Assembly: GCA_003154555.1 (NCBI GenBank)
Contig: PMDT01000266.1
Location: 1 to 12,858, forward strand
Length of the DNA stretch: 12,858 nucleotides
DNA from: Spirochaetaceae bacterium
GTDB taxonomy: Bacteria > Spirochaetota > Spirochaetia > SZUA-6 > Fen-1364
Reading direction: 5' to 3'
Below the pieces are notes generated by a model. The model ran no database searches, had not been told where the DNA came from, and was given only the letters and a program-made list of their open reading frames with translations. Shown here piece by piece: positions 1,167 through 12,858 of this stretch. The translations under genes and the position numbers were made by a program. Within the stretch, counting starts at the first letter, position 1. Each line of letters begins with the position of its first letter.

Positions 1167-4007
1167 TCAGACTTTGGGTGCGAGCTCCAGGATGAGCTCC
1201 ACCTCGCCCCGGCTCAGCTGCGTGACGCGCGAGATCTCCTGGACGGACCATCCCTGGTGGGACAGCTTCACCACCGTTTCCCGCTTGTCCATGGGTGGCG
1301 CGCCGCGGTCGGCTTTTTCCTTCTTCGTCTCCGCTTTCACGATGCTTTCCAGCAACCTCACCTGCTCCTGCGCCTGCCTTCCGATTTCCTCGAAGCGCGT
1401 TTCGGTCCGCGCCATCCATTCCCGCGAGCTCTGCGCCTTTTCAAGGCGTCCTTCCAGCTCAGCCATGATGCTGCCGAGCTTTCCCACCGTCTCCATAGCG
1501 GTTTCGGCATCCTTCTTGTTGCTCGCAAGAAGGCCGTATTCCGACTGCAGGGAATTGACCTTGCCGGCAAGCTCGAGGGCGGCCTTGTCGGCGTCCTGGA
1601 GCGAGCGCTCGATGCCCTCCAGCCGCTGGAAGTTCCTGTCCACGCCTTCCGAGGTGATGGAGAGTATCTCTTTCTTCTTCTCCAGCCTTTCGAATCCGCC
1701 TTCCACCGCCTTGCCCATTTCCTCGAACTGCCGGACCTTTGCCTGGATCTGCTGCAACGCATCGCTGCTGGTCGACAGCGTGTCGAGCTTCAGGTCAACG
1801 TCGCGCGAAAGGGCAATGATCTTCTTGAACTCGCCGTCCATGTCCTCGATGCGGCGCTTCTCCGTGAGAAACCGCGTGAGCTTGGCGGTCACCTCGTCGG
1901 CGACCTTGCGCGTCCTGGTGAGTTGCACCTCGATCTCCACGATCTCCCCGCGCTCCGCGTTGAGCTTCGTCATTTCCTTCTTCATCTCGTCGATCGTGCC
2001 CTCCAGGGCGGCCTTCAGGGAGTCCGCGCGCTCGAACAGGCGTGTCTGCGACATGAAGTTCTTCACCCTCTTGTCGATCTCGGCGATGTTCACCGAAAGG
2101 AGGCGGGAGCTCTCTTCGATCTTTCCGAAGAGCTTCTCCTGCATTGCGTCCGACTTTTCCCGCGCGTCGGCGAACTGCTGCTTGTGCTCCTTGATCCGTG
2201 CCTCGACGTCGCTCTGCAGGTCGCGGAGCCGCTTCTGGCTCTCCACCTGGAAGGCATCCATCTGGCCCCGGAGCGATTCCATGGCGGACTCTGTGGATCT
2301 GCCGAGCTCCGATTTGTACGAGGCGAGGGCCTCGCCCATGTCGGAAAGCTCCTTGCGCAGCGCCATGCGCTCTTCATTCGTGGAGACCAGGAGGTCCTCT
2401 TTCTGCGCCGCGAAGGCGTCCCGGAGAGAGCCGATGGAGGAAGACGCATCCGTGGAGAGCGTGGAGATTCGTTCCGCGATGGCAAGCTCCGTCTCGGCGA
2501 GCTGTTCCTTCGCCCTGCCCTCCCAGACGGCGACTTCTGCCCGCGACGCCTCGAAAAGCTCCGCGAGCTCCTTGTGGCCTGCGTCCAGCTCCGCGGAGAC
2601 CTCCTTGAGCCGGGTCTCGATCTCACGATGCATCTTGCGCGTTCCCGATTCCAAGGTATCGCGCACGCCCGCGAGGTCCTTTTCAAAGGCAAGCGATGCA
2701 TCTTTCTTTGCCTTTTCCGTCTCTGCGCGCAGCGATTCGCGCAGCGCGAGCATGGATTCGTCGGCAGCGGCGACGCGTTCCTTGACGTCCGTTTCAAAAT
2801 CGACGGCCCGCTTCTCCATGTCTGCCTGCCATGCCAGGAGTTTTTCCTGCATGACGGAAGACCGGGCGCGCAGGTCCACGAAGAACTCGTCCTCGAACAC
2901 GGAGAGCTTGCTCTCCACGTCCTGGTACGCGCGCGTCTTCAGGGCCGCGAGCCCCGCCTCCACCTCGCCCATGCCGGCGCGGAGCTGTTCCCGTGCCGTG
3001 GAGGCAGCCGCGATTTCCGAGGTCCACCCCGCCACGAGATTCGCGCCAAGTGACTTCATCTCGGCGCGTATCCCGCCCGCCATGCGTTCCATCGTCTCGT
3101 TAAGCGACGCGCGCATTGCATCGATATCGGCGTTCGCTTCCTCCAGGGACTTCACCCGGTAATCGACGTCTCCCTGGTAGTCGGCGACGCGCGCCTCCAG
3201 CGCCTCGATGCTCTTTGCGACGACCGTTTCATCTTCCGCGATCCGCCCGGTGAGACGGGAGAACACCTCGTCCTCCAGGGACTCGCCCTTCTTCGCCGCG
3301 TTGGAAAGCTTGCCGCGCAGGTCCGCATCGAATGCGTCGAGGGTTTTCGCAAGCGCTGCGATGCGCTCCTTCTGCGTCTGCTCTTCCCGCGCTTCAAGCC
3401 GCGCCATGTACGCGGAGAAATCTTTCACCTTTTTCTCCGTGTCCACGAGGCTCGTATCCAGCGCGGCGACCTTGCCCTCCACCACGGAGAGGACCTCCGC
3501 GCGCGCCTCGTCCAGGCCGGCCCGGCACTGGTCCGCGAAGCTTCGTTCCATGTCGGGAATGCGCTGCTCGATGGACTCCATGCGCTTTGCCGATTCGCCG
3601 ATCCGGCGCTCGACGCCGTCCACGAACTCCGATTCGTCGCGGATGCGCAGGAGATTCTTGTCCACACGGGCGGACATCGCGGTGAGCTCCGCGAGGGTCT
3701 TGTCATACTCCACGAAACGCGCCTGGATCGCCTCGACGTCGGCGCCGCGCGTGTCGAGAACCTCCTCGACGCTCCGGGCGCGCGCCACGATGTCCTTGCC
3801 CATCTTGAGGCTCGCCTGGAGCTCAGCGGAAAGATCCTTCACCTCCGCGGTCTTCTCCTGCACGAGCGCCGACAGGTTCTCCGTGATCTTGTCGCTGAAT
3901 CTCTTCAGCTTTTCGAGGGATCTGTTGCTCCGGTCCAGCGCGCGGTAGATGACGAGTATGAGAAGGACGACGACAAGGGTGATCAGGTCACCGATTGAGA
4001 AAATCAT
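1167..4007 (-). CDS. SpiroCoCo-like membrane-anchored coiled-coil protein with C-terminal helix-turn-helix
   Basis: A 946-residue protein. Residues 4-23 form one hydrophobic anchor (ITLVVVLLILVIY core) followed by a basic stretch, so the bulk is probably cytoplasmic. Residues about 25-890 are almost uninterrupted heptad-type sequence rich in Glu, Lys, Ala and Leu with very few prolines, predicting a very long coiled coil. After a short linker (GAPPMDK, about 902-908), residues about 907-946 form a small helix-turn-helix-like domain: VVKLSHQGWSVQEISRVTQLSRGEVELIL. This tail resembles the C-termini of SwrB-like motility proteins. The whole resembles the spirochaete coiled-coil family that databases name SpiroCoCo, whose function is not established to my knowledge. 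The ATG at 4007 has a strong Shine-Dalgarno (GGGGAGGGG) 3 nt upstream and its own promoter. It sits upstream of grpE-dnaK. A structural or cell-shape/motility scaffold role is inference only. Confidence 0.85.
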   Translation of the reverse strand: MIFSIGDLITLVVVLLILVIYRALDRSNRSLEKLKRFSDKITENLSALVQEKTAEVKDLSAELQASLKMGKDIVARARSVEEVLDTRGADVEAIQARFVEYDKTLAELTAMSARVDKNLLRIRDESEFVDGVERRIGESAKRMESIEQRIPDMERSFADQCRAGLDEARAEVLSVVEGKVAALDTSLVDTEKKVKDFSAYMARLEAREEQTQKERIAALAKTLDAFDADLRGKLSNAAKKGESLEDEVFSRLTGRIAEDETVVAKSIEALEARVADYQGDVDYRVKSLEEANADIDAMRASLNETMERMAGGIRAEMKSLGANLVAGWTSEIAAASTAREQLRAGMGEVEAGLAALKTRAYQDVESKLSVFEDEFFVDLRARSSVMQEKLLAWQADMEKRAVDFETDVKERVAAADESMLALRESLRAETEKAKKDASLAFEKDLAGVRDTLESGTRKMHREIETRLKEVSAELDAGHKELAELFEASRAEVAVWEGRAKEQLAETELAIAERISTLSTDASSSIGSLRDAFAAQKEDLLVSTNEERMALRKELSDMGEALASYKSELGRSTESAMESLRGQMDAFQVESQKRLRDLQSDVEARIKEHKQQFADAREKSDAMQEKLFGKIEESSRLLSVNIAEIDKRVKNFMSQTRLFERADSLKAALEGTIDEMKKEMTKLNAERGEIVEIEVQLTRTRKVADEVTAKLTRFLTEKRRIEDMDGEFKKIIALSRDVDLKLDTLSTSSDALQQIQAKVRQFEEMGKAVEGGFERLEKKKEILSITSEGVDRNFQRLEGIERSLQDADKAALELAGKVNSLQSEYGLLASNKKDAETAMETVGKLGSIMAELEGRLEKAQSSREWMARTETRFEEIGRQAQEQVRLLESIVKAETKKEKADRGAPPMDKRETVVKLSHQGWSVQEISRVTQLSRGEVELILELAPKV

Positions 4008-6847: not shown

Positions 6848-9735
6848 CGCGCGCCTCCAAGGAGAAGCCGTGACTTCACGGTCCAGGATGAGGCAGGGAA
6901 GCCCGCCTCCAGCCGTTTGACCAACGCTGCCACCTCGTCGGGCTTCTTCGCAAGCTGCATCATTTCCGCCGCGCGGTAGATCGCGGAGGCGGCAAAGTCA
7001 GGATCCACGTTCGTCAGCAGCACGACGGCAAGGAACTGCCGCGCCGCCTCCGCGAGGTCTCCTTTTCTGTAGAAGTATTCGCCGATGAGCATCTGCGCCT
7101 GCGGCGCTCCCTGCGGGTTGCCCTCTTTCACGACCGGGAGGAGGAGCGTGTAGCCGGTATCCGCCTTCTTGTCGCCGGCGTAGATGTAGAGCTTCGCAAG
7201 GTCGATGGTTGCCTGCCTTTTCTTGTCGCCGGTCTCACGCGCGATGATGGCGGAGAGCGCCGATTCACGGTCACCCTCTCCGCTTGCAAGCAGCCTGAGC
7301 TGCTCGGCGCGGATGTCGGCGCGCGCGGCGCGGGCATCGTCGGGAAACTCCTTGATGAAACGCGTATACAGGTCGAGCGCCTGCGGATACGCCTGGGTCT
7401 TCGCGTAGGCCTCCGCCGTCTGCTGGAGCGCCGGGCTCCTGAAGCTGCTGTCAGGGTAGCCCGCGATCAGTTGCTCCCAGAGGAGCGCCGCCGCCATCCC
7501 TTCCCCGACGTTCTGGGCTGCCTGGCCTCCCCAGTACAGGGCCGCATCGACAAGCTTCCCCTTGGGGTATCGCGTGCGGTATTCGTCGAAGGCAGCGCGC
7601 GCGTCCGACCACATCCCGTGCGTGAAGAATGTGTCCGCGCGTCGGTAGAGGGCCTCCTCGCGGAGAGGGCTGTCGGGAAACGCGTCGGTGAGCTTCCGGT
7701 ATGCCGCCGCCGCCTGTTGGGTCTGGCCGAGATCCGAGAGGGCGCCTGCTTCGTCGAACAGCGCATCGGCCGCCCATGGCGAGGGCGGCGCGGAGCCGGC
7801 GATGCCGGCCAGCACCCGCGCGGCTTCATCGCGCTTCTTCTCATTGAGCAGGCTCTTGGCATACAGATAGAGACTCTTCTGCGCGAGGTCGCCCTGGCCG
7901 CCGCGTGCCGGCACGGCGGAGAATGCCGCGGCAGCCTTGTCGAAATCGCCCGCGCTGAAATGTGACCAGCCGGCGAGATAGGTCACCATGGGCGCAAGCT
8001 CGTGCGTCGGGAACGCTGCCGCCATGTCGTCGAAGACCTGGGCGGCGCTGGGGAAATCGGACATCCGCAGATAGGCCCACCCGAGATAGTAGCGGGCATA
8101 GGGAACGATGACGGTGAGCCCGTTTTTCTGCGCAAGGGCCGGTGTGATCGACGCGAGGTCCGCCGTCGCGTGCGAATAGTCCTTCGTGGCGATCAGCGAC
8201 AGGCCGCGGAGATAGGAAACGACGATCGCCGCGTAGGGGTCCTGCGCATCAATGGCGGGGAATTGCCGGCGCACGGCGTCGGCCTCGGTGATGATCTCGG
8301 CATTCCGCTTCAATACGAAGAGCGCCTTCAGATAATCGAGACGCGACCTCAGGTCCGTGGGGTACCGCGTCACGTAATCCTTGAGCGCATCGGCGGCCTG
8401 CGCCGTCTGTCGCGCCCCATTGAAGAGCACGATCTGCAGGCGTGCAACCTGCTGGCGCAGCGCGGGATCCGTGTCCTGGCGGAGAAGCCCGTCCACCAGG
8501 CGGGCAGCCTCGTCCCCCTTGCCCTGCCGGAAGTAACAATACGCCAGCAGGTAGGCGGCTTCGGGTGCCCGGTGGGAGTCAGGGAATGCCGTTCTGAACT
8601 GGGAGTAGTAACCGGCGGCGGCGGAAAAATCGTCGCCCATGAGGCTGATGTCCCCAAGCCGGATGATCACGGCTCCCGTGCCGGGCTTCCCGGCCGACAG
8701 GAAGTCCGCGAGGATCTGCCGCGCCGCCACGGGGTCTTTTTTGGCGATCAGGATCTCGGCAAGGTAGATCGGCACGACCTCGTTGACCGGGGCTTCCTGG
8801 CGGACACTCCAGGCGCGCCGCAGGAATGCATCGGCGACATCGAGATTCCCCTGGCGGAAGCTCTCCGCCCCGACACGGGTCCAGAGGTCCGAGAGAACAC
8901 TCGTTCTCCCCGTAAAGCGCGTCTCGGCGGCCTGCGTCAGGTCGCGCATGGCCTGCAGGTCCTGCTTGCGCTGGGCGGCGGAAAAGAGCCTTCCATAGGC
9001 AACGAGCGCAACGTCGTCGGAGGCACCGACGAGCTGGATGTACAAAGGCTGTGCATCATCCGTGCGGCCGGACTGCCAGAGAGCCTCGGCCCGCAGGAGG
9101 AGGAACTGGCTCTTCCATGGCTCGGGGAAGCTTGTCGCGTCGGTCTTCTGCGTCAGCGAAAGAAGATCTGGAAAGGCGGCCTCCTTCTGCAGCAGCGCTC
9201 CAAGAAGCACGGCGGCATAGGGGAAAAGCCGCGAGCTTTGATAATTTGAGACGATCGATTTCAGGCTTGCAAGGGCATCCGTGTCATTCGAAAGCGCCTG
9301 CAGCGCAAGAGCCTTGTGAAGGAGGGCCTGCGGTGTGAACTCCTGGTCGCTCGGTCCGGCAAGGAATGCATTCAGGCTCTCCACGCTGAGGGCATAGCTC
9401 TGCAGCGCATACAGCGACAGCCCTTTCCACAGGGGGACGTAGGCGAAGTACCGGGTCGTGCGATAGTGAATCTCGATGTCGCCGATGAGCTGGACCGCGT
9501 CGCGGTAGCGCGCCAGGCGGTACATGCAGACAGCGCGGCGATATTCCACGTCCGCGACCCGCTCGGACAACGGGTAGGCGGAGAGGAATGTCGTGTATGC
9601 CTCCAGGGCCGCGGCGTAATTCCTGCCCAGGTATCGGCTCTCCGCTTCCGCGTACAGGCTGCTTTCCGCCGGAGCGGCTGAAATCGGTTGCGCGCCGCCC
9701 GCAAAAAGGAGAAGTCCCAGGATGAATGCAATCAT
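6844..9735 (-). CDS. Large exported tetratricopeptide-repeat protein
   Basis: A 963-residue protein made almost wholly of TPR-type helical pairs. Recurrent units of the form A...Y..FL..YP.S..V..A.YR.A......G.Y..A appear from about residue 25 to the C-terminus; clear ones include YAEAESRYLGRNYAAALEAY (28-47), ARYYLGWAYLRMSDFPSAAQ, and EEALYRRADTFFTHGMWSDA. Residues 1-21 look like a signal peptide (FILGLLLF core, ISAAPA cut region) but lack the usual positive charge, so periplasmic location is likely rather than certain. The repeats resemble those of periplasmic scaffolds such as CpoB/YbgF and BamD, but the protein is much longer. It starts 30 nt after the preceding stop without a visible Shine-Dalgarno. 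The ATG at 9735 is the first start codon after the in-frame TAA at 9766-9768. It overlaps the barrel gene by ATGA, suggesting it scaffolds an envelope complex with it. Confidence 0.85.
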   Translation of the reverse strand: MIAFILGLLLFAGGAQPISAAPAESSLYAEAESRYLGRNYAAALEAYTTFLSAYPLSERVADVEYRRAVCMYRLARYRDAVQLIGDIEIHYRTTRYFAYVPLWKGLSLYALQSYALSVESLNAFLAGPSDQEFTPQALLHKALALQALSNDTDALASLKSIVSNYQSSRLFPYAAVLLGALLQKEAAFPDLLSLTQKTDATSFPEPWKSQFLLLRAEALWQSGRTDDAQPLYIQLVGASDDVALVAYGRLFSAAQRKQDLQAMRDLTQAAETRFTGRTSVLSDLWTRVGAESFRQGNLDVADAFLRRAWSVRQEAPVNEVVPIYLAEILIAKKDPVAARQILADFLSAGKPGTGAVIIRLGDISLMGDDFSAAAGYYSQFRTAFPDSHRAPEAAYLLAYCYFRQGKGDEAARLVDGLLRQDTDPALRQQVARLQIVLFNGARQTAQAADALKDYVTRYPTDLRSRLDYLKALFVLKRNAEIITEADAVRRQFPAIDAQDPYAAIVVSYLRGLSLIATKDYSHATADLASITPALAQKNGLTVIVPYARYYLGWAYLRMSDFPSAAQVFDDMAAAFPTHELAPMVTYLAGWSHFSAGDFDKAAAAFSAVPARGGQGDLAQKSLYLYAKSLLNEKKRDEAARVLAGIAGSAPPSPWAADALFDEAGALSDLGQTQQAAAAYRKLTDAFPDSPLREEALYRRADTFFTHGMWSDARAAFDEYRTRYPKGKLVDAALYWGGQAAQNVGEGMAAALLWEQLIAGYPDSSFRSPALQQTAEAYAKTQAYPQALDLYTRFIKEFPDDARAARADIRAEQLRLLASGEGDRESALSAIIARETGDKKRQATIDLAKLYIYAGDKKADTGYTLLLPVVKEGNPQGAPQAQMLIGEYFYRKGDLAEAARQFLAVVLLTNVDPDFAASAIYRAAEMMQLAKKPDEVAALVKRLEAGFPASSWTVKSRLLLGGAR
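6854..6858 (-). promoter_or_regulatory. Strong Shine-Dalgarno of the beta-barrel gene
   Basis: The minus strand reads GGAGG, 6 nt and then ATG at 6847. The site encodes the final Gly codons of the upstream TPR protein (LLLGGAR) and supports the ATGA-overlap start. It is the best ribosome binding site within the overlapping operon, implying that the barrel gene can initiate independently as well as by coupling. Confidence 0.75.
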
Positions 9736-9765
9736 TATAACTAAATGATACTGCGGCCCGGTGGG

Positions 9766-11070
9766 TTATTCAATTTGCGGAGGTGCAAACTCACCCTCCG
9801 AATCGACATGGACGAGATGCACGAACTCGGCGGCGTAACGACGGTTGAGCGATGGGAGGCTCGTTTCCTTGTTCCGCTCCATCACGGAGACCCGGAAAAC
9901 GCCCTGCGCGTCGAAATACGGAAACAGCACGATCACGTGATGATGCTGGCGGAGCGTCGGCGTTCCCTCCGACAGGGCGAGCGCCGAAGGGGCGTTCACG
10001 GAGCCGACATAGATCTCGCCGGGATTCTCCCGCGCAAGAAAATACAGCACGTATTGCAGGAGCGGGACCGGATAGCCGACGTCCCGCACGTAGGGTACGC
10101 GCCGGGAGTCCCGAACGTCGATCTGGTCGTCGGCAGGAGCCACGCCTGTGCGCGCCTGCACGAGTGCCCGCGCCAGTCCCCGGCTCCAATCCAGACCAAA
10201 GTACGGGTCCAGCTCCTCCTCGTAGCGGGACGCCCATGGGTGGTCCTTTCCCGCGTTGCGCGACTTCAGCACCGCAATGTCGGTGTCCCTTCCCGTGAGC
10301 GGCGCGACGAGGCCGTCGATGATCCACTTCGCGAAGCCCGAGCAGTTGAACCCGCCCTTGCCGGCAGGTTGGCCGGTGGCGATGTAGACCATGCGGCCAT
10401 TCGCGTCCATTGCCCCATCGTCCATGTCGCGAAGCGCCGGCAGCCGGCTCCGCAGCACTTTCACCATCGCCTCGATGCGCACGTCCGCGCCGGTGCGTCC
10501 AGCGGGTGCGAGCACGAGACCCCAGTCCACGGACGTTGCGCTCAGGTCGATGATGCTCGCAAGGGGCGCGGTGAGGAGGCGATCGAAAGCCGCCGGCAGC
10601 GCAATGCCCGTCTGGAAGGGCTGGCCGAACAGAAACACGTCCATCTGTGTGCGGTCGCCGCTCGGGAAGAGGCGCAGGTAGCTTCCCGGCCCGTCCTGCA
10701 CAAATATCTTCGCCTGCACGAAGCCGCCGTCCTTCAGGCTGCGCTTGATGATCCAGGTACCGGCGCCGTCCAGGGGATAGCCCGTGCCTTTCTGGTTTGC
10801 AAAAATCAGGTACAGCGCGTCAGACTGCGCGTCGCGCCGGAATGAAACGCGCGAACCTCCGGTCTGCGTGAGGATGGCCTCTCGGGCGCGCGCGGCCTCA
10901 TCGAGCGGCGCGAAGATCGTGTCCTGCATGCGCTGTCGCGCTTCCCAGTTTTCCTGGAGCGCGATGGTCTGCGTGACAGCCCCGAGACCCGGCGCCGCGT
11001 GCGCGCAGGGAATGCAGGCTGCCACAAGGAGCAGGAAGGAAGCGGATCTATACCAGGAGCGTGTCCTCAT
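9766..11070 (-). CDS. Secreted or lipid-anchored protein with NlpC/P60-like Cys...His pattern
   Basis: A 434-residue exported protein of no family I recognise by name. MRTRSWYR followed by a hydrophobic core and LVAAC (Cys19) fits a spirochaete-type lipobox; cutting by ordinary signal peptidase at AHA-A is the alternative. FNCSGFAKW (242-250, Cys243) resembles the catalytic DCSGF motif of NlpC/P60 cysteine peptidases and amidases. HHHVIVLF (376-383) lies where the catalytic His and following beta strand would be, in the normal Cys-before-His order. The roughly 130 residues between are longer than in typical NlpC/P60 domains. The first 230 residues are unassigned. A TTG at 11073 is possible, but the ATG at 11070 has AAGGA 8 nt upstream and is preferred. 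It overlaps the pyrophosphorylase gene by 23 nt. A role in cutting peptidoglycan peptides is possible but unproven. Confidence 0.7.
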   Translation of the reverse strand: MRTRSWYRSASFLLLVAACIPCAHAAPGLGAVTQTIALQENWEARQRMQDTIFAPLDEAARAREAILTQTGGSRVSFRRDAQSDALYLIFANQKGTGYPLDGAGTWIIKRSLKDGGFVQAKIFVQDGPGSYLRLFPSGDRTQMDVFLFGQPFQTGIALPAAFDRLLTAPLASIIDLSATSVDWGLVLAPAGRTGADVRIEAMVKVLRSRLPALRDMDDGAMDANGRMVYIATGQPAGKGGFNCSGFAKWIIDGLVAPLTGRDTDIAVLKSRNAGKDHPWASRYEEELDPYFGLDWSRGLARALVQARTGVAPADDQIDVRDSRRVPYVRDVGYPVPLLQYVLYFLARENPGEIYVGSVNAPSALALSEGTPTLRQHHHVIVLFPYFDAQGVFRVSVMERNKETSLPSLNRRYAAEFVHLVHVDSEGEFAPPQIE

Positions 11071-12790
11071 CAATGCGATCCTTCAGGATCCCCCGCCGCG
11101 CGGCAAGGACGTCGGGGTCCGGCGCGAAGAGCGGGCTGATCTCGATTTCGTGGAGCGGACGGCCGTCGGCGCCCCGGGGGACTTCCACACCGACAGCCTC
11201 CAGCCATCGCGCCGCCTGCTCCACCTGGCCGCGATGACAGGACTCGATGGAGTCCACTCCTTCCCGGTTCTTCAACGGCGCGAACTCATCGGCGCGCTCC
11301 GTCTCGAAAAATAAGGCGCTGCCGGCGAGCGGGATCGCGTCGAAGATGAACATCTCCATCTTGACCGCATCCCTCTCACATACTTCGGCGCCCGCGGCAG
11401 TCGGATTGAGGGTCTTCACCTTCTTGCGCGCGACGTGCAGCGGCAGCTCGAGGCCCGGGGTTTCCAGGAAGGGCACGTCGAAAATGTGGATGGCGATGGA
11501 TCCCTGGTCGAAGAGGAGCCTGCCTCCCGCGTCGCGCGCGTGCATGCGCGCCTGGTCAAGGTCCGAGTACTCGATGACGCACGGCACTCCGTCCCTCGTC
11601 GCGATGACCCCGAGCTTCTCCTCAGGGTAGGCCTTCTCGACGACCTTGGCCGATGCGCGCGCTTCCGCGCGCAGATGAAAACCGAGGTAGACGGGGTCCG
11701 GCACGCGGACCAGGGGGTTGTCCACCTGGAAATAGAAAAGGTGCCGCACGCCCCTTTCCCGCATGCGTGCAAGATTTCCGGACCGGCGCAACGCATCGAT
11801 CACGCCGCCATGCCCGTTGGGATTGAAGAAGAGCCCGCCGTCCGGAGCCATGAGGAGCCTGCCGTCGGGCGACAGGGACGGCAGCATGCCCTGGGGGAAC
11901 ATCCGGACCGTCTCCGGTCCCAGGCCGAACCAGTCCTCCGATTCGAAGTAATCAATTGTTGCTTGATGATTCTGCGGACCGGTCATGATGAGCCAGGGGA
12001 TCTCGACCCCGTAGCGCCTGCGTGCCGCGGTGAGCTTCTCTGCAAAAAGCGCGAAAAGTGAGAGCTTCCGCAGGGGCGTGACGGGGAACATCCCCTTGGG
12101 CCCTTCGAATCCCAGTCTCGATCCCTGGCCGCCGGCAACGGTGAGAAAGGCGCATCCGCCGCGCCTGATCTCCTCCTCGCCTGCCTCGCGGGCCTGGCGG
12201 TCCGCACTGCTCACCGCGCGCGCGATGTACGGCGCGGGAACGAGCTCTTCGCTTCCGGCGGGATCGCATCCGGCAGCCGGCGCAAGGCATGCGCGCAGGT
12301 CGGAGAGGGTGCGTGGATCGAGCGATGCAAGATCCTCCAGGAGCCGCGCGCGCATCGAATCCGGCCGCGCCTCCCAGAAGTCGAAAAGGTGCCTCTGCCC
12401 CAGCTCCTCGTATCGCTCCCTCAGCTCTTTCTCTCCCATTGATCCATCCTCATCGACATCGACGCGCCCGGCGCGGTCGCGCCTGCGCTTCACGGTCATG
12501 AGCGCATCGATCAGACCCGCGCGCACCTGCGCGAATCGCGCGGCGATGTCGGGATCGCCCGCGCCCAGCTCCTCCCACAGCCGCCTTTTCGCCCCCTCGA
12601 TCGTGAACTTCCGCTCGTAGAGCAGGTCGCGAAAGCGCAGGAGGAGCTGGACTTCGTGCGCCGAATACTCGCGGCGGCCCGAGAGCCCCTTGGGCGGCGA
12701 AAGCAGCGGCAGCTCGCTCTCCCAGTAGCGGATGACGTGCGGCCGCACGCCGAGCAGACGCGCGACCTCGCCGATGCTCCACGAGCTCAT
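11048..12790 (-). CDS. MerR-type DNA-binding domain fused to UDP-sugar/UDP-HexNAc pyrophosphorylase
   Basis: A 580-residue cytoplasmic protein. Residues 3-72 are a MerR winged helix: WSIGEVARLLGVRPHVIRYW, then LSGRREYSAHEVQLLLRF and FTIEGAKRRL. After a charged linker (about 95-117), residues about 118-580 are a UDPGP-family nucleotidyltransferase that joins UTP and a sugar-1-phosphate. The UTP loop AGGQGSRLGFEGPKGMFP (219-236), NPNGHGG (323-329), FQVDNPLV (354-361), KMEMFIFD (477-484) and FAPLKN (503-508) resemble eukaryotic-type UDP-N-acetylglucosamine pyrophosphorylases more than GalU. The substrate (GlcNAc-1-P, GalNAc-1-P or glucose-1-P) is undecided. The ATG at 12790 overlaps the preceding stop as ATGA with only a weak AAGAAG upstream. 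No frameshift separates the domains; an internal ATG (118) could also give the enzyme alone. The fusion suggests transcription control linked to nucleotide-sugar state. Confidence 0.88.
   Translation of the reverse strand: MSSWSIGEVARLLGVRPHVIRYWESELPLLSPPKGLSGRREYSAHEVQLLLRFRDLLYERKFTIEGAKRRLWEELGAGDPDIAARFAQVRAGLIDALMTVKRRRDRAGRVDVDEDGSMGEKELRERYEELGQRHLFDFWEARPDSMRARLLEDLASLDPRTLSDLRACLAPAAGCDPAGSEELVPAPYIARAVSSADRQAREAGEEEIRRGGCAFLTVAGGQGSRLGFEGPKGMFPVTPLRKLSLFALFAEKLTAARRRYGVEIPWLIMTGPQNHQATIDYFESEDWFGLGPETVRMFPQGMLPSLSPDGRLLMAPDGGLFFNPNGHGGVIDALRRSGNLARMRERGVRHLFYFQVDNPLVRVPDPVYLGFHLRAEARASAKVVEKAYPEEKLGVIATRDGVPCVIEYSDLDQARMHARDAGGRLLFDQGSIAIHIFDVPFLETPGLELPLHVARKKVKTLNPTAAGAEVCERDAVKMEMFIFDAIPLAGSALFFETERADEFAPLKNREGVDSIESCHRGQVEQAARWLEAVGVEVPRGADGRPLHEIEISPLFAPDPDVLAARRGILKDRIDEDTLLV
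12437..12451 (-). promoter_or_regulatory. Possible internal translation start for the pyrophosphorylase domain
   Basis: On the minus strand GAGG (plus 12448-12451) is followed after 8 nt by ATG (12437-12439), codon 118 of the fusion gene. It falls in the linker between the MerR and enzyme domains, and the product would begin MGEKELRERYEELG, close to the natural start of free pyrophosphorylases. Spacing is good and the Shine-Dalgarno moderate, so use as a real start is a guess. Confidence 0.35.
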
Positions 12791-12858
12791 CGGGGGATCT
12801 TCTTGCTCTGCGTGAACTCGATGGAGACCGGCACAAGCGTGAAGCCCAGGTCCCTGCG
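12787..12858 (-). CDS. C-terminal end of an unrecognised gene, cut by window edge
   Basis: The last 23 codons of a minus-strand gene are visible: the peptide ends RRDLGFTLVPVSIEFTQSKK plus IPR, then TGA at 12787-12789. The stop overlaps the ATG of the MerR-pyrophosphorylase gene as ATGA, the same arrangement as further down the operon, which supports it being a genuine coding end and the proximal member of the same transcript. Too little remains to name a family. Confidence 0.6.
   Translation of the reverse strand, partial: RRDLGFTLVPVSIEFTQSKKIPR

Follow-up and report, generated by a model that had tools for sequence, protein, structure and literature searches.

Can a transcription regulator of the MerR family be linked to a working metabolic enzyme as its sensor? 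The question is raised by a 12,858-nucleotide stretch of Spirochaetaceae DNA (contig PMDT01000266.1; hereafter the window), in which one gene, merR-uap (11048..12790; this gene, its parts and its NCSGF neighbour, as placed below, all lie on the minus strand), encodes a MerR winged helix followed by a UDPGP-type nucleotide-sugar pyrophosphorylase. The original prediction regarded the gene as a single-frame fusion and a candidate enzyme-regulator. The fusion is genuine: the frame starts with ATG and runs for 580 codons without an internal stop or an N, and both halves are intact. Pfam detected MerR_1 (PF13411) at residues 5-71 with 59.8 bits (cut-off 21.6), MerR at residues 5-42 and UDPGP (PF01704) at residues 213-509 with 108.2 bits (cut-off 22). 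That is, the N-terminal winged helix (residues 3-72; 12575..12784) belongs to the MerR family, and a DNA-binding domain and an intact enzyme occur by sequence within one chain, as expected of a bifunctional enzyme-regulator. A search for related proteins gave the same picture: MerR and UDPGP models were both present in 118 of the best 120 of 7495 matching proteins, in a list ordered by resemblance to the fused protein itself, at 59-98% identity (these sequences are related and are not independent counts). With 418 contigs and 69% completeness, the assembly of the window genome, in which one UDPGP gene was seen, could have produced an assembly or frame artefact; however, the fusion occurs in many separate contigs and sources and in six other genomes of the same order, which refutes this explanation and leaves it a negligible probability.

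The closest solved structures to residues 121-556 were eukaryotic UAP1/AGX UDP-HexNAc pyrophosphorylases, with the UDP-GlcNAc pyrophosphorylase UAP1 (4bma) matching at an E value of 1.8e-68, indicating that the enzyme half belongs to the UAP1/AGX subfamily. An AlphaFold2 model had a mean predicted local distance difference test (pLDDT) score of 88.9 and showed both domains with confidence, whereas the connecting residues 77-117 were mostly below 50. In a Foldseek search with this model, the top 47 rows were all UAP1-type structures, with template modelling scores by target of 0.73-0.87; thus, residues 120-580 (11051..12433) have the fold of a UAP1-type pyrophosphorylase domain. Residues 80-107 (12470..12553) were modelled as a helix with pLDDT mostly below 50 and align with the C-terminal end of stand-alone MerR proteins, and we infer a role in dimerisation. 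CarH was a weak match in NCBIfam and the PDB. Conservation was assessed in 117 full-length relatives of the 120, with three shorter sequences left out. The MerR helix was the best-conserved part, with a mean majority identity of 0.84 compared with 0.67 for the predicted dimerisation helix, 0.50 for the linker and 0.79 for the UAP core.

We transferred the numbering of human AGX1 through the alignment with 1vm8. AGX1 R115, K122, D253 and K407, which we take to be catalytic residues, correspond to R225, K232, D357 (11720..11722) and K507 (11270..11272), and all four are kept, as in the intact fused forms generally (13 fused rows within the 59 intact UAPs compared). The UTP-binding loop (residues 218-236; 12083..12139; residues 219-233 read AGGQGSRLGFEGPKG) is intact, as originally read; its R225 and K232 are present in 59/59 intact UAPs. 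The two asparagines that presumably contact the sugar in AGX1, N223 and N327, are replaced by H327 and S431. Across the 59 bacterial UAPs, H occupied the N223 column in 58 and S the N327 column in 46. Since two likely sugar contacts differ from those of the human enzyme, the sugar is not fixed, and hexoses and HexNAcs are both candidates. We therefore describe the protein as UAP-type on its predicted fold and catalytic features and do not claim GlcNAc specificity.

The enzyme domain begins directly after a candidate internal start codon, an ATG at Met118 (12437..12439), from which a free UAP of 463 amino acids could be made. A Shine-Dalgarno (SD)-like GAGG lies upstream (12448..12451; anti-SD duplex energy -7.4). 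The DNA of the eight fused loci first read carried a start codon at this junction in every case, ATG in seven and GTG in one (G404), preceded by a purine-rich SD-like stretch that was weakest in G053. Among the 117 relatives, the junction column held M in 90, V in 9 and L in 2, so that 101 have a possible start. The residues before the junction M were mostly E/G-G-E, which fits GGAG-like codons, and the remaining linker varied in length and letters. Across ten fused loci, the mean anti-SD duplex energy was -8.0 kcal/mol at the junction, compared with -3.2 kcal/mol for the remaining 93 in-frame ATGs (p 5e-6), and the junction gave the strongest value in six of the ten genes; in this comparison a later, weaker Met was taken for G414, and the frames of G403 and G404 began upstream of the gene. 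The start signal suggests that merR-uap probably makes both MerR-UAP and a free UAP. Because the internal start is present, fusion or fission would require only a single stop codon to be lost or gained.

Many Spirochaetia carry a short, lone MerR gene directly after der. Where complete, the gene order in this class was rny-ymdB-tlyA-...-ptsI-der-merR-(uap)-NCSGF protein-TPR protein; ptsI-der-merR alone was seen in families f3 and f8, and the stretches read from G377 and G395 had no NCSGF gene. The merR start lay within 55 bases of the end of der in 44 of 47 loci with both genes (L106 and L074 represent a single gene), the exceptions being L064, which has an N gap, L078 and L111. In L064, which lies on the window's own contig, one or more unread bases (X in the translation) separate der from merR just past position 12858, and the end of der is unreadable. 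The stand-alone MerRs are mostly 106-136 amino acids long (outliers are the frames of G411, 182 amino acids and starting upstream, and G395, 94 amino acids), have a MerR domain 38-50% identical to that of the fusion and have no effector domain. Therefore, the UAP was added to the regulator rather than swapped for an effector domain, and the proposal that the enzyme had taken the place of one did not hold. In Treponema pallidum, TPASS_0699 is listed as a MerR-family hypothetical protein in PMC4403809. The MerR of G300 (L104:1-1381, minus strand), which also sits at this locus, is no UAP fusion; it runs into a long low-complexity repeat rich in Ala, Val and Pro that is truncated where the contig stops.

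Within the order, we sampled 26 genomes. The uninterrupted fusion occurred in seven (G000, G403, G404 and G413-G416, of which G414 and G415 are truncated at the edge of their contigs) and adjoining separate merR and uap genes in eight (G394, G396-G402; G398 is less sure, being split across two contigs); MerR without UAP was found in nine (G395, G405-G412) and neither in two (G392, G393). Where merR and uap are separate, they touch or overlap; in G402 (ATGA) and G400 (GTGA), stop and start codons share a 4-base sequence. Homologues thus encode the two parts as separate genes, uap after merR, in f62 and in a single genome of f61, and as true fusions in f1 and f65, and the concern attached to the original prediction, that separate genes might be the rule, was borne out by half. 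In other classes, merR-uap without der directly before it was fused in G001, G067 and G053 and separate in G046, G027, G015 and G038. In a genome scan, of which the best 80 of 212 loci were kept, every match that reached into the MerR part came from a record titled Spirochaet-; 66 of these loci (L136-L201) had, in the stretches available, no MerR and no counterpart of the gene that follows merR-uap in the window. On the UAP tree, the fused state needed three changes. The first tree, built without G053, set the UAPs of f23 and f36 apart from those of the window's order; the second was built without G282, a long branch. We do not claim that other classes recruited UAP independently, as grouping all MerR-linked UAPs was not rejected (approximately unbiased test, p 0.36).

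A further state of the gene was found in families f18, f82, f83 and f22, in which the partner fused to MerR has a UAP fold with a destroyed active site. These dead UAPs have lost the phosphate loop, and most have lost the GHGG and DN motifs, but the MerR helix is intact: R21, Y22, W23, E24, P32, K34, G38, R39 and R40 were invariant in all 15 dead-enzyme fusions. Fourteen of the 15 had no Met in the linker proper and L226 had one (Met was scored, not GTG or TTG). A junction start signal in intact fusions, set beside linkers mostly lacking Met in dead ones, fits a free enzyme being made solely where the enzyme works. These homologues and the internal start go beyond the original prediction. Genome G471 holds the MerR-dead-UAP gene twice, on two contigs (L222, L223), reflecting paralogy or a mixed bin. 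Sequence comparison thus arranges the locus as a series: MerR alone, MerR with a separate uap, MerR-UAP fused and MerR fused to a dead UAP. The retention of a dead enzyme copy on MerR points to a sensor role for the enzyme part.

We also compared the enzyme with GlmU. No GlmU model was among the NCBIfam matches of the window protein to E 0.1. The idea that intact UAP replaces GlmU received no clean answer; 0/26 genomes of the order, UAP-less ones included, passed the TIGR01173 cut-off. The alt_bact_glmU model (TIGR03991) was above cut-off in all three f1 genomes and in four of 53 genomes overall, the fourth being G394; in G000 (L033) this gene directly follows one that reads by eye like glmS. 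The NCBIfam name of alt_bact_glmU includes the diphosphorylase step, and Pfam shows a nucleotidyl transferase domain; therefore, UAP cannot be called the sole UDP-GlcNAc source. A divergent GlmU-like protein of about 500 amino acids was present in three of the 11 MerR-only genomes (G395, G405-G412, G370, G374) among the 53 searched, and the dead-UAP genomes gave weak partial GlmU-like matches at most. In G399, a 900-amino-acid protein (L214:1063-3765, minus strand) combines a GlmU-like nucleotidyltransferase with a galactokinase-like kinase.

Given a genuine fusion of two intact halves and a MerR helix conserved better than any other part, the idea of an enzyme-regulator is plausible, and the protein stands as a candidate on sequence evidence. 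We propose that the N-terminal MerR domain would bind DNA as a dimer and that the C-terminal UAP domain would make a UDP-sugar, most likely UDP-HexNAc. Occupancy of the UAP by substrate or product may control activation or the binding to DNA. In addition, a free UAP initiated at Met118 could provide the catalytic supply, so that one gene would yield both an enzyme pool and a MerR-linked sensor. Sister lineages would have abandoned the enzyme work and retained the UAP fold on MerR as a sensor or scaffold. We give even chances to a bifunctional enzyme-regulator of this kind, with UAP as the MerR-linked sensor and a free UAP from Met118. The broader claim, a class of one-component regulators using a nucleotide-sugar pyrophosphorylase as the MerR sensor with all stages seen (coupled genes, dual-start gene, dead-enzyme sensor), we put at slightly under even. 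A regulator that acquired a pyrophosphorylase partner is the simplest account of a fusion that outlasts enzyme death.

Several observations weigh against this proposal. Simple inverted-repeat and promoter scans found no operator or regulated promoter. MerR proteins bind a dyad within promoters that have a long spacer; no inverted repeat recurred in front of three neighbouring genes (the commonest arm was common to two loci), and the promoter scan of window positions 9000-12858, which covered spacers of 16-18 nucleotides, gave one weak promoter-like site, before the TPR gene. At the junction column, 16 of the 117 relatives have no possible start letter, and four of the ten fused genes have another in-frame ATG with equal or stronger SD energy; the window's gene is one of them, with one such codon among its 11 other in-frame ATGs. 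In G046 and G027, no NCSGF neighbour of merR-uap was detected. The genes are separate in f62 and f61, so that the covalent link is dispensable there, and many relatives in the class have MerR without UAP, indicating that this MerR can function alone. Finally, the dead UAPs have also lost much of the ligand site; they need not bind a nucleotide sugar and could be scaffolds.

Some of these observations favour other explanations. Under mere co-expression, two overlapping genes of an operon would have lost the stop codon that divided them, and MerR and UAP would have kept their old jobs without crosstalk. The overlapping or abutting separate genes of f62 and the one f61 genome, the single mutation that joins or splits them given the internal start, and the three changes on the UAP tree all agree with this; nevertheless, co-expression of an enzyme cannot explain dead UAPs still fused to MerR in four families, and we consider it unlikely, though less so than the other alternatives. 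It is rather improbable that the UAP fold is an oligomerisation or partner-binding scaffold and not a small-molecule sensor: MerR C-terminal parts do mediate dimerisation and the dead UAPs have lost their phosphate loop and mostly their GHGG and DN motifs, but the four catalytic residues retained throughout the intact fused forms indicate that the pocket is still selected there. A MerR part that has ceased to regulate and only anchors or dimerises the enzyme would be consistent with the absence of a target in the operator and promoter scans; a best-conserved winged helix, with R21-E24 and G38-R40 invariant even in the dead-enzyme fusions, makes this very improbable.

The gene following merR-uap (9766..11073) overlaps its end and encodes a protein with a signal-like N-terminus by eye; across 23 aligned sequences, G-x-NCSGF is invariant and a His is conserved. 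In many but not all related loci it comes after merR or merR-uap, and its homologue was next in five of seven other-class loci (G001, G067, G053, G015 and, by tblastn, G038). The protein matched no Pfam or NCBIfam family and had no significant PDB sequence match (best E 0.23); it may be an NlpC/P60-like hydrolase that has not been assigned to a family. Elsewhere in the window, a SpiroCoCo coiled-coil protein lies at positions 1167-4007, and grpE comes after it.

If the proposal is true, the MerR family would have a new sensor fold, the locus would provide a natural series for a metabolic enzyme becoming a transcription sensor, and a cell-envelope precursor pool would be tied directly to transcription, offering a handle on the tuning of nucleotide-sugar supply in little-studied environmental spirochaetes. 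The conserved candidate internal start would illustrate a way for a single gene to yield an enzyme together with its reporter. Both halves belong to known families, and the MerR-UAP domain annotation is already in databases; a MerR-UDPGP fusion was not described among the papers listed in searches of open-access PubMed Central text.

The nearest comparison is the short MerR after der in other Spirochaetia, at the same locus, which differs in having no enzyme domain. The UAP1/AGX family (PF01704), best known from eukaryotes, shares the fold and catalytic residues, whereas here the enzyme is fused to MerR and has H and S at the AGX1 N223 and N327 positions. The principle of a DNA-binding domain joined to an enzyme or enzyme-derived sensor is known. 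NadR, BirA and PutA combine a DNA-binding domain and an active metabolic enzyme in one chain, with ligand control proven; MerR-UAP has the same layout, built from other DNA-binding and enzyme families, and is known by sequence. NagC/Mlc (ROK repressors) and NrtR carry an enzyme-derived, catalytically dead sensor, a layout like that of the f18 and f82 homologues, although the fold there is a sugar kinase or Nudix domain and the DNA-binding domain is not MerR. CarH/LitR and other MerR one-component sensors join the MerR helix to a C-terminal sensor for cobalamin or another small ligand; MerR-UAP likewise joins this helix to a C-terminal part, but that part is a metabolic enzyme instead of a ligand-binding domain.
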